Assembly (NCBI GenBank): GCA_003151745.1
Contig: PLYJ01000124.1
Span: forward strand, 1 to 46,424
Direction: 5' to 3'
Length of the DNA stretch: 46,424 nucleotides
From: Bacteroidota bacterium
Lineage (GTDB): Bacteria; Bacteroidota; Bacteroidia; AKYH767-A; 2013-40CM-41-45
Position 1 is the first letter of the stretch; each line of letters starts with the position of its first letter. Shown one piece after another: positions 1,822 through 41,572 of this stretch. The notes under the pieces were generated by a model. It was given only the letters and a program-made list of their open reading frames with translations, had not been told where the DNA came from and ran no database searches. Position numbers and translations under genes: made by a program.

Positions 1822-2976
1822 CTATTTCTTAAGGACAATCCGAAAAATCGTTCCCTTATTGGGTTCGGAGCTTTTTACAAAAATCTGCCCGTCATGATAT
1901 TCTTCAATGATGCGCTTGCTGAGCGAGAGGCCAAGCCCCCAGCCGCGGCTCTTGGTCGTGTAGCCGGGTTTGAAAATAGTTTTATAGTTTGCCTTTGCAA
2001 TTCCTTTTCCCGTATCGGCAATGTCTATATATGCGAACTGGTGCTGATCGGTAATGGTTACTGTAATTTTACCCGGCGTGCCCATGGCATCAATGGCATT
2101 CTTCAGCAGGTTTTCTATGACCCACTCAAACAGCGGAACATTGATCGGAGCATGCACTTCATTAACCGGCGGAACAAGCTTAAAGGTAATCTTATCAGAT
2201 GCGCGCGACTTCATATAATCCATCGAATGCTGCATCACTTCGCTTAGATCTTCTTTTTTAAGTGAAGGAGCAGAACCTATTTTTGAAAAACGCTCGGTGA
2301 TGGTTTGCAGGCGTATAACATCCTTTTCTATTTCCTGCGTATATTCTTTATCTGCGCCTTTCATCTTTAAGTAATCCAGCCATGCCATGAGCGATGACAG
2401 CGGAGTGCCAAGCTGGTGGGCTGTTTCCTTTGCCATGCCTACCCACACCTGGTTTTGCTCTGCCTTGCGCGATGTGCTGAAAGCAAGATACGACACAAAT
2501 AAAAACAAGGCAATAACCGCTAACTGGAAGTACGGATAATAACGAAGCTTGACGAGCAGGCTGGAATCTTCATAGTATAAATACTGTTTGAAGCCGCCCA
2601 GCTCACTTTTAAAATCAATGAAAATAGGATCATGCTCCGACTTCATGATTTGAAGATGCTGCTCCAGGTAGGTCATGTCCTTCTCCCGAAGGGAATCGAG
2701 GTTTCGTGAAGCCATGATTTTCCCTTTGTCATCGGTTTGAATAATGGGGATGGTCGTGTTGTTGGAAATGACAGAGCTGAGAAAAACAATGTCTTCATTC
2801 GTGCCCACTGCAGCGAAGCGCTTGGTGGCCTCAGCCCAAATCTGCATTTTCTTCTTTTCCTCTTCCGATAATTGCTTTACCAGCCTGCTGGTGTACCAAA
2901 GGGATGCAGCGCCGATCAGTAAGGCGGCAACGAGCAACAGGGCTTTCCAGCGTTGTTTTTGTGTGTAGATATTCAT
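1822..2976 (-). CDS. Membrane sensor histidine kinase (orphan)
   Basis: A 384-aa inner-membrane histidine kinase. Transmembrane segments are visible at about residues 12-31 and 148-168, enclosing a periplasmic sensor region of about 115 residues. The phospho-acceptor H-box is TAHQLGTPLSSLMAWL, a variant common in Bacteroidota, with the histidine near residue 188. ATPase motifs follow: an N-box (ENLLKNAIDAM), a G1 box (DTGKGI) and a G2 box (GWGLGLSLSKRI). No response-regulator gene adjoins it, so its partner is elsewhere. The signal is unknown. It is upstream of hemW on the same strand but separated by a repeat and a separate promoter-like box. Confidence 0.9.
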   Translation of the reverse strand: MNIYTQKQRWKALLLVAALLIGAASLWYTSRLVKQLSEEEKKKMQIWAEATKRFAAVGTNEDIVFLSSVISNNTTIPIIQTDDKGKIMASRNLDSLREKDMTYLEQHLQIMKSEHDPIFIDFKSELGGFKQYLYYEDSSLLVKLRYYPYFQLAVIALFLFVSYLAFSTSRKAEQNQVWVGMAKETAHQLGTPLSSLMAWLDYLKMKGADKEYTQEIEKDVIRLQTITERFSKIGSAPSLKKEDLSEVMQHSMDYMKSRASDKITFKLVPPVNEVHAPINVPLFEWVIENLLKNAIDAMGTPGKITVTITDQHQFAYIDIADTGKGIAKANYKTIFKPGYTTKSRGWGLGLSLSKRIIEEYHDGQIFVKSSEPNKGTIFRIVLKK

Positions 2977-2995
2977 GGCAGCATAAATGCGACCC

Positions 2996-3003
2996 CAAAC
3001 CTA
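2996..3003 (-). promoter_or_regulatory. Putative -7 box for the histidine kinase gene
   Basis: The minus strand reads TAGGTTTG, a match to TAnnTTTG, ending 19 bp before the ATG at 2976. The -33 region is not clear. Confidence 0.35.
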
Positions 3004-3089
3004 CATGATTCGTTCGGGAAACACAAGAAGTGCATAACGTAAAATTGAATTATTTATTTCATTTCTGATTTATTTAGACAACTTCAACA

Positions 3090-3147
3090 GGGAGTTAGAA
3101 GTGGGAAGCCGGCTTATACTTCTTCCTTCTCCCTACTCCTGACTCTC
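3090..3147. repeat. Imperfect inverted repeat (GGGAGTAGGGAG family)
   Basis: Left arm GGGAGTTAGAAGTGGGAAG, right arm CTTCCTTCTCCCTACTCCTG, separated by a short C/T-rich spacer. The same family recurs at 31324-31383 with GTTGGGAGTAGGGAG and TTCCTACTCCTCACTCCC. It lies between the divergent kinase and panC genes. Confidence 0.6.
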
Positions 3148-3171: not shown

Positions 3172-4035
3172 ATGCAGGTAACAGAAACGAAATCCGCTTT
3201 GATGAAATTGCTAGCTCCTCTCCGGCTGGAGGGAAAGAGGATTTCTTTTGTGCCAACAATGGGTGCGCTTCATAGAGGGCATATATCCCTGGTGGATCGT
3301 GCGCGCAAAGAATGTGATATAGTTGTTTGCAGCATCTTTGTTAACCCGACACAGTTTAATAATCCTGGTGATCTGAAGAACTACCCCCGAACAGTTAAGC
3401 AGGATTCGGCTATGCTTGAGAAGGCATTGGTTGATATTGTTTTTCTTCCTTCGGTTGAAGAAATGTATGCTCCGGGAGAGATAGAGGAAACATTTGATTT
3501 CGGAATGTTGGATAAGGTGATGGAAGGCGCTCAGCGTCCCGGTCATTTTAAAGGTGTAGCCATCATCGTTTCGAAGTTATTTGAAATCGTTCGTCCGCAT
3601 AAAGCCTATTTCGGAGAAAAAGATTTTCAGCAATTAACCATTATTCGGGAACTCGTTAATCAAAGGAAGTCCCTTACGTACGGGATTGAAATTATAGGTT
3701 GCGAAACAGTACGTGAACAAAGCGGTTTAGCCATGAGCTCAAGAAATATGCGGCTTACGGAAGATGAAAGAAAAGAAGCGGCGAATATTTACAAGGCGCT
3801 TTCCATGATTAAAAGTGAATGGAAGAAATCAAACACGAACAATGCCGAAATCATCAACAAGGCAATTAAAGTGATTGAACAAAACGGAATGATGAAGGTG
3901 GAGTACCTGGAAATTGCTGATGAAAAGACGTTAATGCCGGTTAATTCGGAGAATCAAGGGAAGCTTCTGCGCTGTTTTGCTGCGATTCAATTAGGCAATG
4001 TACGCCTCATAGATAATATGAAACTGGAAATTTGA
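3172..4035 (+). CDS. panC: Pantothenate synthetase
   Basis: It condenses pantoate with beta-alanine using ATP, the last step to pantothenate (vitamin B5, coenzyme A precursor) in the cytoplasm. Family motifs are intact: VPTMGALHRGHISLV (nucleotide-binding HIGH-like motif, residues 27-41), FVNPTQF, GHFKGVAIIVSKLF, YFGEKDFQQL and MSSRNMRL (KMSKS-like loop). The 287-aa length is normal. It is followed by panD, which makes its beta-alanine substrate. The ATG at 3172 directly follows a -7-like box. Confidence 0.96.
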   Translation: MQVTETKSALMKLLAPLRLEGKRISFVPTMGALHRGHISLVDRARKECDIVVCSIFVNPTQFNNPGDLKNYPRTVKQDSAMLEKALVDIVFLPSVEEMYAPGEIEETFDFGMLDKVMEGAQRPGHFKGVAIIVSKLFEIVRPHKAYFGEKDFQQLTIIRELVNQRKSLTYGIEIIGCETVREQSGLAMSSRNMRLTEDERKEAANIYKALSMIKSEWKKSNTNNAEIINKAIKVIEQNGMMKVEYLEIADEKTLMPVNSENQGKLLRCFAAIQLGNVRLIDNMKLEI

Positions 4036-4110
4036 AACTGACTGTAAGTCATTCTGTAAGAATATTGTTGATTCCGAGCAGTTAACTAATAAGATGCTTT
4101 CAGCATAACC

Positions 4111-4142
4111 TTCGGTTAGTTTCCCCTTAATTTCTACTTTTG
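4111..4142 (+). promoter_or_regulatory. Putative promoter for panD
   Basis: A TACTTTTG -7 box at 4135-4142 matches TAnnTTTG, with TTCG 20 bp upstream as a weak -33 element. The panD ATG follows 8 bp after the -7 box, suggesting a very short leader and expression independent of panC. Confidence 0.5.
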
Positions 4143-13863: not shown

Positions 13864-14157
13864 GGCGCCATTTTAATCAGGCGACACACCATTTTGTTGT
13901 GGTGGCGTAACGCCTTTATGAAGCGACGCACCATTTCATTGTGGTGGCGCATCACTCTCATGAAGCGATGCACCATTTTATCGTGGCGACGCATCACTTT
14001 CATGAAGCGGCATGCCATTTTATTGTGGTGGTGCATCACTTTTATGAAGCAACACACCATTTCATTGTGGTGACGCGTAACTTCATTATGGCGACGCACT
14101 GCTTCATCGTGGTGACGCACCACTTTTATGTGGTGGTGCACCGTTTTTGCGTGGTTT
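13864..14157 (+). repeat. 21-bp-period repeat array B (14 units)
   Basis: Fourteen units start every 21 bp from 13864 to 14137 without any phase slip. Two unit types mostly alternate: CACCATTTCATTGTGGTG (self-complementary ends) and CATCACTTTCATGAAGCG. Differences among units of the first type are all transitions by my reading. The last ~30 bp, including GTGGTGGTGCACCGTTTTTG, is almost identical to the end of array D. Because 21 is a multiple of three, ORFs stay open on both strands (the 118-aa and 85-aa track entries), but one plus-strand unit carries TAA. It lies upstream of the recQ-dprA-like operon and downstream (in the plus direction) of the divergent arsR. Confidence 0.93.
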
Positions 14158-14465
14158 TGCTGTTTTGTAATGAAAAAAGGGGATTCCACTTATGTTAAGG
14201 GGCAATTATTGCAATTTTTGAACACCCTTACCGGATGATGGCTTTGTTTTACTTTAAATCATTTTGGCCAAACAAGAATTGTCAGAAATTCCTTTTATAA
14301 AAACGCAGGAATACAGATTATCGCAACTCCCAATTGTGTTAATCTGCAATAAGTGTGTTGTATTAACGAACTTTTTGTAGGTTTGATTTCGTTAATATAA
14401 ATAGTATGGGCAATTTTAGCGCAACTAACTAACAGTATCGGTAATTTGAAAGTGTGTAATTCATT
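14158..14465. other. Non-coding leader region of the recQ-like operon
   Basis: About 310 bp without a gene between array B and the helicase start. It is A+T rich and holds one clear inverted repeat (listed separately). TTTG at 14382-14385 is a possible -33 element, but no good -7 box follows. Confidence 0.5.
14361..14397. promoter_or_regulatory. Inverted repeat, possible operator of the recQ-dprA-like operon
   Basis: TATTAACGAA (14361-14370) and TTCGTTAATA (14388-14397) are perfect 10-bp arms with a 17-bp spacer, about 70 bp before the helicase ATG. There is no T-tract, so a regulator-binding site is more likely than a terminator. No regulator gene adjoins the operon. Confidence 0.5.
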
Positions 14466-16481
14466 ATGACACGACAAGAAGCGGAAAAAATTTTACAACA
14501 GACTTTCAAACTACAAAAGTTCTACGATGAGCAATGGGAAGCAATTGAAAAAATCCTGAAAGGTGAAAGGGTATTACTTATTGAAAAAACAGGTTTTGGT
14601 AAATCACTTTGCTTTCAATTTCCAGCGACACAATTTAAGGGAACAACTGTAATTTTTACTCCACTCATTGCACTGATGCGTGACCAAGTAAAGAAACTTA
14701 CTGCACTTGGTATATCTGCAAAGTGTATCAACAGTGAACAAACACCAGAAGAAAATTCTCAAATCATAAACGAAGCGAAGCAAGGCAAAATCAAAATTCT
14801 CTATATCGCACCTGAAAGGCAAGAGAATAGTGAATGGATTGAAGCTACAAGAGAAATGAATTTAAAAATGGTTGTAGTTGATGAAGCACATTGCATTTCT
14901 GTTTGGGGACACGACTTCCGACCAGCTTTCAGAAGAATCATAAACCTTGTAAAACTTCTACCGACAGGACTTCCAGTTCTTGCAACGACAGCAACTGCAA
15001 CAAAAAGAGTTGAGCAAGATGTCGCTCAACAAATTAGCGGCAACATCACAACATTGAGAGGGAATCTAATGAGAGATAACTTCAAGTTGTTTGTTGTGAA
15101 GGTTGCGTCAGAAGATGAAAAGTTAATTTGGTTAGGAAAGAATTTGGAAAGACTTCCAGGTTCAGGAATTCTCTATACAGGAACAAGGGTTGACACAGAA
15201 ATTTATTCCAAATGGTTTGAGCATTTAAAAATTTCTTCAACAGGTTATAACGCAGGACTTGACGTAGAATCAAGAATTGCAATTGAAAACGGATTAATGC
15301 AAAATCAATGGAAGTGCATCATTTCAACCAACGCATTGGGAATGGGAATTGATAAACCCGACATTCGTTTCATCATTCACACTCAAATTCCACAATCTCC
15401 AATTCATTACTATCAGGAAATTGGCAGAGCAGGCAGAGACGGACAACCTTCTTACATCATTCTCTTTTATAATCCAAAGGACAAAGAATTGCCGGAAGCA
15501 TTTATTGAAGGAGGCAGACCATCAATTAAGAAATATGAAAAAGTAATTGAAGCAGTAAAAGCAGAATTGCTTGGTAAATGGGATTTAATGCGAAAAACAA
15601 ATCTCAAGAAAACTCAAATTAGAGTAATCAAAGCTGACCTGATTGAGCAGGGGATTATCCGTGAAGTAATGATAAATCGTGCAAAAAAATATGAATTTAT
15701 TCCAAACTCTCAGCCGTTGAACACAAAAGCATTTGAAGAACTTCGCAATGCAAAAACGAAAGACCTTGACAACATGATTCAGTATGTTGAAACAACAGAA
15801 TCAAGAATGAAATTTCTTTGCGATTACTTAGGTGACAAATCAAATCACACATTCACGAATTGTGACAACACAGGAGAGAAAAGAATTGTTGTTCAAGTTA
15901 CTACTGAATGGACAGAAAGACTGCAAGCGTTCAGGGAAGATTATTTTCCTCAATTGGAAGTTGAGGCAAACGGTTCAAATATTGTGAATGGCGTTGCATC
16001 ATCTTACTATGGAGTTTCAAATGTTGGTACGGCACTTCACCGTTCAAAGTACGAACATAGTGGAGATTTCCCCGACTTCCTTTTAAAATTTGTTTTAAAA
16101 GCATTCAGAAAGAAATTCGGTCAAGAGATATTTGACTTAGTTGTCTATATTCCGCCAACCTCTTCTGGCGACTTAGTAAAAAACTTTGTAGTTAAGGTTG
16201 CTCAAGTTTTGAAATTCCCAATCTCCCATAACTTGAAAAAGCAACGACAGACATCTGAGCAAAAAGTTTTTGAAAATAGTTTATTAAAATCAGACAATGT
16301 AAAAGGGGCTTTTACATATGAGGCACCGAATGAGATAAGCGGAAAAAGCATTTTACTGATTGATGATATTTTTGATAGCGGTGCAACTGTGAAGGAGGTA
16401 GGTAGAATATTAACTAACTTTGGGGCAATAAAAATTGCCCCAATTGTCATAGCAAGAACAGTTGGAGGCGACTTAGTATGA
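14466..16481 (+). CDS. RecQ-family helicase fused to a ComF-type phosphoribosyltransferase
   Basis: A 671-aa fusion. Residues ~20-340 form a RecQ helicase core: KTGFGKSLCF (Walker A), TPLIALMRDQVKKL, VVDEAHCISVWGHDFRP (DEAH box), TTATAT, ALGMGIDKPDIRF and QEIGRAGRDG. A winged-helix-like region follows, but the RecQ zinc-binding cysteine cluster is degenerate (only FLCDYLG and FTNCDNT remain). Residues ~520-671 match the ComF/GntX phosphoribosyltransferase pattern with LKKQRQTSEQK, DNVKGAF and the PRPP loop LLIDDIFDSGATV. The stop overlaps the next start (ATGA), so it is translationally coupled to a DprA-like gene. A PRTase and a DprA homologue also make up the ShosTA anti-phage pair, as I recall. 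A defence or DNA-processing role is inferred. Confidence 0.88.
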   Translation: MTRQEAEKILQQTFKLQKFYDEQWEAIEKILKGERVLLIEKTGFGKSLCFQFPATQFKGTTVIFTPLIALMRDQVKKLTALGISAKCINSEQTPEENSQIINEAKQGKIKILYIAPERQENSEWIEATREMNLKMVVVDEAHCISVWGHDFRPAFRRIINLVKLLPTGLPVLATTATATKRVEQDVAQQISGNITTLRGNLMRDNFKLFVVKVASEDEKLIWLGKNLERLPGSGILYTGTRVDTEIYSKWFEHLKISSTGYNAGLDVESRIAIENGLMQNQWKCIISTNALGMGIDKPDIRFIIHTQIPQSPIHYYQEIGRAGRDGQPSYIILFYNPKDKELPEAFIEGGRPSIKKYEKVIEAVKAELLGKWDLMRKTNLKKTQIRVIKADLIEQGIIREVMINRAKKYEFIPNSQPLNTKAFEELRNAKTKDLDNMIQYVETTESRMKFLCDYLGDKSNHTFTNCDNTGEKRIVVQVTTEWTERLQAFREDYFPQLEVEANGSNIVNGVASSYYGVSNVGTALHRSKYEHSGDFPDFLLKFVLKAFRKKFGQEIFDLVVYIPPTSSGDLVKNFVVKVAQVLKFPISHNLKKQRQTSEQKVFENSLLKSDNVKGAFTYEAPNEISGKSILLIDDIFDSGATVKEVGRILTNFGAIKIAPIVIARTVGGDLV

Positions 16482-17620
16482 TGAATGAAGCTGTATATTG
16501 GATGGCGTTGGCCCATTTGCCAAGGTGGGGTCATTTGAAAATAAATAACCTCATCATAAAGTTTTATCACGAATACAGAATTTCAATTGAGGATTTTTTT
16601 AACCTTACGGAAACTGAATGGAGAACAGATTACCAATTAGATGAAAAGCAAGTTTATGATTTGCAGAAAGCAAAATTAGAATTGGCGGGCAATGCATTTT
16701 TAGCAGAATCATTTTTTAGTCAAGGTTTTGAACTGATTCCAATTGTCTCACCTCAATTTTCAAAAACTCTAAAAGGAAATTTGAAAGCTGCACACTCTCC
16801 TGCTGTACTGTATGTGAAAGGCAACAAAAAAATTCTTGATGAAAAATCTATTGCAATTGTAGGTTCAAGGGATGCTTCGGAAGTGTCTTTGAAATTTACA
16901 GACAACATTGCGAAACTTGCAAGTAAAGAATATAAAGTTGTAGTAAGTGGTTTTGCAAAAGGAGTTGACAAGCAAGCATTGGATTCAGCAATCAATTACA
17001 AAGGACAAAGCATAATTGTTTTACCGCAGGGTATTATGACTTTCGGTTCAGGATTCAAAAAGTATTACAGTCAAATAATAAATGGTGATGTTTTGGTGTT
17101 AAGCACTTTCTTTCCAAAAGCTCCGTGGAGAGCAGAGTTAGCAATGGCAAGGAATCCTATTATCTATGGTCTTGCAGACGAAATTTATGTTGCGGAATCA
17201 GCAGAGAAAGGCGGAACATGGTCAGGGGTTGTTGATGGGTTAAGGAAGCAAAGAAAAATCTTTGTTAGACAGCCAGAACCAACTGAGAAAAACGCGAACT
17301 TAATTTTGATTCAAAAGGGAGCAGTGCCAGTTGACTTTAATGGAAATGTTTTTGCTAAAACGTATGACACGACAACACTTGAGCAAGTGTCAGTTGTTCA
17401 AGAACCATCTGAATCGCTTGATTCAAAAATTCGTTCTGCGTTTAATGGAAGACCTTTAAGTGCTAAGGAATTAATTTCTAAACTTGGTTTAGATTGGTCA
17501 ACAAAAAAACTTAGCGCATACATGAAGCATCTTCACTTTATTGAAGTTATTAAGAATAAAAAACCTAATCTATACAAGGTAAAAGGAATTGCCGACTCCC
17601 AACCAAGTCTTTTTGCTTAG
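16478..17620 (+). CDS. DprA/Smf-like DNA-processing protein
   Basis: A 380-aa protein. An N-terminal helical region (~1-115) precedes a DprA Rossmann domain with IAIVGSRDAS, VVSGFAKGVDKQA (the SGxAxGxD signature), VLPQGI and GGTWSGVVDGLRK. The C terminus (~315-370, RPLSAKELISKLGLDWSTKKL) is a winged-helix-like domain. Canonical DprA loads RecA onto incoming single-stranded DNA. Here the gene is in an operon with a RecQ-PRTase fusion and overlaps it by 4 bp, so a dedicated partner role is more likely than general competence. Confidence 0.87.
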   Translation: MMNEAVYWMALAHLPRWGHLKINNLIIKFYHEYRISIEDFFNLTETEWRTDYQLDEKQVYDLQKAKLELAGNAFLAESFFSQGFELIPIVSPQFSKTLKGNLKAAHSPAVLYVKGNKKILDEKSIAIVGSRDASEVSLKFTDNIAKLASKEYKVVVSGFAKGVDKQALDSAINYKGQSIIVLPQGIMTFGSGFKKYYSQIINGDVLVLSTFFPKAPWRAELAMARNPIIYGLADEIYVAESAEKGGTWSGVVDGLRKQRKIFVRQPEPTEKNANLILIQKGAVPVDFNGNVFAKTYDTTTLEQVSVVQEPSESLDSKIRSAFNGRPLSAKELISKLGLDWSTKKLSAYMKHLHFIEVIKNKKPNLYKVKGIADSQPSLFA

Positions 17621-28729: not shown

Positions 28730-28960
28730 ATGAGGACTCTTAATATTTCAATCTCTGATGTTGAATACAGTAAATTCGGTTTAAGGAACAACAAACTTAC
28801 TTTCTCCGATTTTCTTGATATGGTGAGCAAAGAACTGTCGCGGCAGACACTTAACAAGTGTGTTGAACTTGCTGAGAAACACGGGCTTTCCAAAATGACC
28901 ATGAAAGACATTACCAAAGAGGTAAAAGCCGTAAGGAGAAATGCAAAAAATCGTCATTGA
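28730..28960 (+). CDS. Antitoxin of a PIN-domain toxin pair
   Basis: A 76-aa protein starting MRTLNISISDVEYSKFGL, a ribbon-helix-helix-like N terminus, with a charged C terminus (KDITKEVKAVRRNAKNRH). It overlaps the PIN gene by 20 bp. Position and size fit an antitoxin that also represses the operon. Confidence 0.75.
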   Translation: MRTLNISISDVEYSKFGLRNNKLTFSDFLDMVSKELSRQTLNKCVELAEKHGLSKMTMKDITKEVKAVRRNAKNRH

Positions 28961-29357
28961 CACAAACGTATTAGTTTCTTCTTTTATACAGCGTGGCTAT
29001 CCTTACTTAATCGTTGACCTTTTTTTTGAACAGAAAATTAAGCTATGCATTTCTGATGAAGTGATTGAAGAATATTACAATGTTCTGAATCGCGAAAAGT
29101 TCTCTAAATATCCTGACTTTCTTTTAAGAGCGGAGTTGTTGCTTGCTGACATAGAAACAAAAGCAGCGAGGTTTACTCCTAAACTCAAAGTAAGAATGAT
29201 AAGTGATCGTAATGACAATAAATTTTTAGAACTTGCAGGAGAAAGCAAAGCTAATTTCCTTATTACTGGCAACACTAACGACTTTACAATGGCTGCTTAC
29301 AGGAAGACAAAAATTGTAACACCAAAAGAATATTTGGAGAAATATAGTCCTTCATAA
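28941..29357 (+). CDS. PIN-domain toxin (VapC-like)
   Basis: A 138-aa PIN-family ribonuclease. The first acidic motif is VIDTNVLVSSF (residues 4-14). The others are VIEEYYNVLNREKF, MISDRNDNKFLELA (second acidic cluster) and FLITGNTNDF. VapC-like toxins cleave tRNA or rRNA; the target here is unknown. Its 3' end overlaps the decayed ParE gene on the other strand, whose C-terminal part is missing. Confidence 0.87.
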   Translation: MQKIVIDTNVLVSSFIQRGYPYLIVDLFFEQKIKLCISDEVIEEYYNVLNREKFSKYPDFLLRAELLLADIETKAARFTPKLKVRMISDRNDNKFLELAGESKANFLITGNTNDFTMAAYRKTKIVTPKEYLEKYSPS

Positions 29358-29837: not shown

Positions 29838-29915
29838 GAAACATCCCTTTTAATAGTCCTTACTATACATGATTTGTATTGATTTGGTGCAAAAAAACGC
29901 AATAGTTAAGCAAAA

Positions 29916-30166
29916 ATCATGAGTAACTCTATCGAAATCACTCATAACTCTGTTGAAATGATGGCTAACTTTATCAAAATCACCCATAACGCTGTTGAAG
30001 CGATGGCTGACTCTTTCGAATTCACTTATAAACTGATGAAGTAACGGGTGACTCTACCGAAATCACCCATAACCCTGATGAAGTTATGGCTAACTCTATC
30101 GAATTCACTCATAACTCTGATGAAGTTATGGGTGATTCTGTTGAATTCATCTATCATTTTTGACAG
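29916..30166 (+). repeat. 21-bp-period repeat array C (12 units)
   Basis: Twelve units start at 29916, 29937, 29958, 29979, 30000, 30021, 30041, 30062, 30083, 30104, 30125 and 30146. All are 21 bp except one of 20 bp (30021-30040). Two types alternate: ATCACCCATAACTCTGTTGA and GTTATGGCTAACTCTATCGA. Neighbouring units contain reverse-complement halves (ATCACCCATAAC and GTTATGGGTGAT). A unit here matches a unit of array B at 17 of 21 positions by hand alignment. It lies between the TA remnants and the 3' end of thiL. Bases 29838-29915 and 30167-30237 hold nothing recognised. Confidence 0.92.
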
Positions 30167-41278: not shown

Positions 41279-41572
41279 CGGACGTTTCAACGAGGCGGCA
41301 TTACACCACGATGAAACGGCATACCACTCCATCAAGGCGGCATACCGTTTTGACGAAGCGGTGCACCACTTCAACGTGGCGGCATACCATCTCAACGAGG
41401 CGTCGCACCACTACCATAAGGCGACTGACCATCTCACCGAAGCGACACGCCACTTCAACAAGGCGGTGCGTAACCACAACGCGGCGGTGCACCACTTTTG
41501 TAAGGCGGTGCGTAACCACGACGAAGTGACGCACCACTTTTTGGTGGTGGTGCACCGTTTTTGGGGTGAATT
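41279..41572 (+). repeat. 21-bp-period repeat array D (14 units)
   Basis: Fourteen units start every 21 bp from 41279 to 41552 with no phase slip. A typical unit is GCACCACTTCAACGTGGCGG plus one base and differs from a unit of array B at about 4 of 21 positions. The final two units (GCACCACTTTTTGGTGGTGG then GCACCGTTTTTGG) nearly equal the end of array B. ORFs of 87-132 aa are open on both strands because 21 is a multiple of three; the heptads they would encode vary at all codon positions, so I do not call a gene. It lies between attR and the restriction-modification locus. Bases 41573-41783 hold only A+T-rich sequence, with one TACATTTG word at 41688. Confidence 0.93.

Follow-up and report, generated by a model that had tools for sequence, protein, structure and literature searches.

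The window, that is, the whole stretch of 46,424 nucleotides from a Bacteroidota genome (contig PLYJ01000124.1) that we analyzed, carries a two-gene operon in which a RecQ-like helicase, fused to a C-terminal ComF-type phosphoribosyltransferase (PRTase), overlaps a DprA-like gene by 4 bp. This arrangement had been reported in a preliminary description of the sequence; we recovered both open reading frames with their Pfam domains, and profile searches for RecQ, PRTase, and DprA placed the three domains in one operon. The features are as follows.

14466-16481, plus strand: psyrT (rqlH), 671 aa, predicted toxin (PADLOC PsyrT, Pfam, motifs, model and fold match)
PsyrT residues ~1-350, ~421-468, and ~520-665: helicase, degenerate zinc module, and C-terminal ComF-type PRTase, respectively
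14592-14606, plus strand: Walker A motif GFGKS, PsyrT residues 43-47; G45 and K46 are invariant in 73/73 PsyrT
15819-15863, plus strand: degenerate zinc module, PsyrT residues 452-466, with C452 and C466, of which only C466 lies in a RecQ zinc-cysteine column
16362-16388, plus strand: PRPP-binding loop DDIFDSGAT, PsyrT residues 633-641; both aspartates are invariant in 73/73 PsyrT
16478-16481, plus strand: overlap of the psyrT stop and psyrA start (ATGA, 4 bp), read from the sequence; translational coupling
16478-17620, plus strand: psyrA (rqlI), 380 aa, predicted antitoxin (PADLOC PsyrA, Pfam, DprA/ShosA profile match)
PsyrA residues ~82-284: Rossmann domain

Pfam recognized DEAD, Helicase_C, a weak RecQ_Zn_bind, and Pribosyltran on PsyrT, and DNA_processg_A (5.1e-39) on PsyrA. 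PsyrT also carries DEAH at residues 139-142 and QEIGRAGRD at residue 317, and its helicase and PRPP motifs are intact in the window copy and invariant across the 73 PsyrT sequences compared. An AlphaFold model of PsyrT, built from 21 relatives (mean pLDDT of 82), matched the solved RecQ catalytic core with a best TM-score of 0.69-0.70 (target length) at 30% identity, and the PsyrA profile matched solved DprA and the solved ShosA 9vzo. The zinc cluster is indeed degenerate, as had been noted: the four RecQ zinc-cysteine columns read S, F, C, and T in the window PsyrT, leaving one cysteine of four, while both RecQs encoded in this genome carry cysteine at each position. Promoter and terminator scans performed no better than shuffles.

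The operon had also been described as lying directly after a 21-bp array and an inverted repeat with 10-bp arms. These elements do exist upstream: the best reading of the array is a repeat of 42 bp (2 x 21) over 13881-14130, followed by 21-bp copies up to 14155, and imperfect 13-nt inverted repeats lie at 14314-14346 and 14358-14400, one of which is probably the repeat with 10-bp arms. A link between them and the operon did not hold up. Both the array and the inverted repeats are absent from relatives of the operon, and we rejected a link to either because the DNA of those relatives becomes similar only at the psyrT start codon or at most 5 bp from it, and because the window holds other arrays of this period and other parts of the genome hold related sequence. 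The window contains four imperfect 42-bp (2 x 21) arrays (18-220, 13881-14155, 29914-30139, and 41286-41541), and sequence similar to the one at 13881-14155 recurs on other contigs.

The pair is a member of the PsyrTA (RqlHI) family

PsyrTA/RqlHI was described in 2013-2015 (PMC4670107; for PsyrTA of Pseudomonas syringae, Sberro et al. 2013, as cited there), is modeled in PADLOC (PDLC03928 and PDLC03927), and is tracked by DefenseFinder. The PADLOC-DB PsyrT model matched the first gene product with an E value of 2.6e-264 over residues 2-669 (profile positions 2-688 of 689), and the PsyrA model matched the second with 1.2e-76 over residues 25-368. The suggested kinship to ShosTA was also seen, as a PRTase plus DprA-like pair with weaker matches: the PADLOC ShosT model covered only residues 591-666 of PsyrT (1.2e-6), and the ShosA model matched PsyrA with 5e-34. 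Neither protein qualified as a canonical RecQ or DprA; PsyrT scored 366.6 bits against the NCBIfam TIGR01389 cut-off of 640.2 for RecQ and keeps one of four zinc cysteines, and PsyrA scored 109.9 bits against 191.15 for NCBIfam dprA (TIGR00732).

The domain order and gene order agree with this assignment. A RecQ-like helicase is fused to a C-terminal PRTase (PADLOC, Pfam), a DprA-like partner lies directly downstream on the same strand, and Walker A, DEAH, and the PRPP-loop aspartates are all intact. The PRTase is fused to the helicase rather than encoded as a stand-alone ShosT. The window pair is therefore a clear member of the known PsyrTA family and no new defense system; its family membership, operon structure, and intact active sites are established here. 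The preliminary description had taken it for a candidate undescribed system, which it is not, since the same pair is found in PMC4670107, PADLOC, and DefenseFinder, and ShosTA, PsyrTA (printed "syrTA"), and RqlHI have already been compared together in PMC9122126. That paper also put forward a model in which DprA detects phage DNA and switches on the PRTase, so the central idea of the preliminary description had already been published. In all, the pair is very probably a PsyrTA (RqlHI) toxin-antitoxin cassette that this Bacteroidota genome acquired horizontally.

Loss of the zinc cysteines is shared by a whole subfamily

Identity to the window protein divided the 73 PsyrT sequences sharply: 49, counting the window's own, share at least 54%, and the other 24 share at most 33%. 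In a tree, these distant sequences were set apart by a branch with support of 100, and the RecQs of the window's own genome lay outside both groups. Judged by its sequence, the window copy belongs to a compact, Bacteroidota-centered PsyrT subfamily. All four zinc columns hold cysteine in 17 of the 24 distant PsyrT, and the other seven lack all four. Zinc cysteines have been lost in every one of the 49 subfamily members: the third column is cysteine throughout (49/49), and columns 1, 2, and 4 hold S, F/Y, and T with rare exceptions, one sequence having C in the first. Because the loss is seen in all 49, the degenerate cluster was inherited within the branch and does not reflect decay of the window copy. 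We note that the biochemistry of the window copy may differ from that of known PsyrTA/RqlHI, since its PsyrT is only ~29-34% identical to distant plasmid copies and the zinc module is lost.

The two genes are closely paired across the subfamily. In 43 of 49 loci, psyrA overlaps the end of psyrT or starts within 60 bp of it, and in four it lies farther away. Pairwise identities of PsyrT and PsyrA were correlated (rho of 0.68; none of 500 permutations was as high), as expected if the pair travels together, with shared host ancestry contributing. No psyrA was found in the remaining two loci, L059 and L060, although the L059 sequence spans only 1.9 kb downstream. These two order relatives with PsyrT and no PsyrA alongside are not predicted by a simple toxin-antitoxin view. 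L059 and L060 (genomes G013 and G014) come from one genus of the same order as the window, with PsyrT 57 and 54% identical to the window protein; in L060, psyrT is followed by genes resembling aromatic amino-acid biosynthesis.

Some loci depart from the two-gene form. In three separate genomes, psyrT and psyrA are separated by a third gene that overlaps each of them (L010:4374-6035, L047:1173-2333, and L048:10013-11611). It encodes a protein of 386-553 aa with a second, C-terminal ComF-type PRTase and an intact PRPP loop (FDDLFRSGET-like); its N-terminal part had no Pfam match, and a structure model of the L010 protein (pLDDT of 43.5) was too poor to name a fold. In L031, two KilA-N genes (2308-3132 and 3296-4111) stand between psyrT and psyrA and match the PADLOC candidate PDC-S22 (5e-134 and 2e-130). 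A narrow literature search returned no description of either the PsyrT-PRTase-PsyrA form or the KilA-N form. In L111:3537-7082 (G320), the PsyrT open reading frame is 1181 aa long, with an N-terminal extension of ~480 residues that by eye resembles exonuclease I, and its PsyrA (665 aa) by eye resembles two DprA-like units. One could suppose that the zinc-less, Bacteroidota-centered branch is functionally separate, a bare two-gene cassette to which some members have added a second PRTase to form a two-PRTase complex; we consider this unlikely.

The pair is mobile and patchily distributed

The distribution of the pair is that of an accessory element. At E ≤ 1e-120, PsyrT was found in none of the 10 other genomes of the family and in 2 of the 41 other genomes of the order, and by profile it was found in 32 of the 396 phylum genomes sampled. 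A core locus conserved throughout the genus, which the preliminary description had set as a finding that would refute its proposal, was not borne out as far as family and order relatives show, most of which lack the pair. PsyrT proteins 81-87% identical to that of the window occur in Flavobacteriales, Sphingobacteriales, Petrimonas, and bins labeled Desulfobulbaceae and Campylobacteraceae (81-82% in these last two; both are metagenome bins, and individual assignments may be in error). At the DNA level, the window resembles its relatives only across the two genes: the match opens no more than 5 bp from the psyrT start codon and closes no more than 20 bp from the psyrA stop codon. The operon has a GC content of 0.36 and a GC3 of 0.28-0.29, compared with a GC3 of 0.41-0.53 for nine other genes of the window. 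Mobility of the pair is thus established. Taking together the similarity limited to two genes, the low GC3, the absence from all 10 family genomes, and the close relatives in distant taxa, we infer that it travels as a cassette of the two genes alone. We identified neither an integrase nor an insertion boundary, and only one other family genome contained the flanking DsbA-like gene. A scan of viral contigs, reaching close relatives only, gave no PsyrT relative, and phage records gave only partial DprA matches.

This distribution bears on the idea that the pair is a DNA repair or uptake module, in which the helicase and the domains resembling ComF and DprA would process single-stranded DNA that is damaged or entering the cell, to the benefit of the host, with toxicity arising as a by-product of imbalance. 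In keeping with this idea, competence involves ComF and DprA, and repair involves RecQ. PsyrT without PsyrA in two order relatives, once beside aromatic amino-acid genes, also favors it, as do the proposal of Russell and Mulvey that RqlHI does a beneficial job on DNA and the presence of rqlH alone in many Gram-positives (PMC4670107). However, a host module accords poorly with the patchy presence described above, with 81-82% identity across phyla, and with the low GC3. Furthermore, two more RecQ-like loci and further PRTase matches are present in the genome, and an rqlHI double deletion in E. coli had no detected fitness defect (PMC4670107). We regard a repair or uptake module as highly improbable.

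The surroundings of the pair bear on another alternative, namely a distinct, undescribed anti-phage system, a helicase-armed ShosTA whose helicase and DprA sense phage DNA and whose PRTase is the effector. In its favor, a DprA-PRTase pair protects E. coli from T7 and lambda (PMC9122126), distant plasmid PsyrTA pairs lie inside type I RM and BREX operons, and the window subfamily is divergent and zinc-less. On the other hand, the PsyrT and PsyrA models match nearly over their full length and ShosT and ShosA far more weakly, and E. coli PsyrTA gave no detectable phage protection in one test, in which expression was accompanied by a growth defect (PMC12409345). Nor did we see a defense island among the window open reading frames scanned; most neighbors with matches have metabolic or housekeeping roles, and a PIN-domain gene lies at 28941-29357. 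Among 123 proteins flanking subfamily loci, a handful of PADLOC matches appeared among those listed, not clearly more than among 123 proteins taken from loci picked arbitrarily, in a coarse comparison that used generic models and control regions partly from other genomes. We judge a distinct system of this kind to be very unlikely. The plasmid loci themselves are L054:694-10115 (E. coli), where PsyrTA lies between hsdS and hsdR of a type I RM operon, and L055:1-10040 (Acinetobacter), where it lies between pglX and DUF262/pglZ of a BREX operon.

Proposed mode of action

Toxin-antitoxin action, by homology with the E. coli and P. syringae pairs, is the best-supported reading of function. E. coli RqlH is toxic without RqlI, and this toxicity requires the PRTase domain and D663; RqlI, which physically interacts with RqlH, suppresses it (PMC4670107). 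PsyrT was named as the P. syringae ortholog of RqlH and is toxic without PsyrA (PMC4670107). The RqlH residues tested in E. coli, K49, D148, and D663 (PMC4670107), have their motif counterparts in K46, D139, and the PRPP loop of the window PsyrT.

We infer that the window copy behaves as E. coli RqlHI does. PsyrT would be a RecQ-like DNA translocase with a PRPP-binding PRTase toxin domain, and PsyrA, as a DprA-like protein, would bind PsyrT and keep it in check. The most likely trigger would be abnormal DNA, such as single-stranded DNA from a phage, plasmid entry, or stalled replication. By engaging the helicase and the DprA-like protein, such DNA would free the PRTase, which may then damage DNA or nucleotide metabolism, whereupon growth would stop. 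Any defensive benefit is conjectural; from the likeness to DprA-PRTase (ShosTA) pairs, anti-phage activity of the window pair is plausible.

These results remove the candidate from the undescribed systems and place it in the PsyrTA family. A mobile, Bacteroidota-centered branch that has naturally lost its zinc module should be useful for probing the role of that module, and the rare three-gene variants may reveal how the toxin is controlled.

Comparison with known systems

PsyrTA of P. syringae (PDLC03928 and PDLC03927), to which we likened the pair through the near full-length profile match, has the same domain architecture and gene order; against the other PsyrT collected, the window branch is at most 33% identical. 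M. smegmatis RqlH (Ordonez et al. 2012, as cited in PMC4670107 and PMC5512222) is likewise a RecQ-like helicase with a C-terminal PRTase; it has no detectable RqlI partner (PMC4670107), whereas the window PsyrT is accompanied by PsyrA. In RqlHI of extraintestinal E. coli, rqlH is always upstream of rqlI, and gene order and coupling are the same as in the window pair (PMC4670107). The RqlHI relative on the E. coli plasmid NZ_OX030731.1 (L054) also has the helicase-PRTase gene upstream of the DprA-like gene with a 4-bp overlap and keeps Walker A, DEAH, and the PRPP aspartates. However, its PsyrT is 29% identical to that of the window and retains all four zinc cysteines rather than one, its PsyrA is 462 aa long rather than 380 aa, and, unlike the window pair, it lies within a type I RM operon. 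ShosTA (PMC9122126) likewise combines a PRTase toxin with a DprA-like antitoxin; it has no helicase, whereas the PRTase of the window pair is fused to one.
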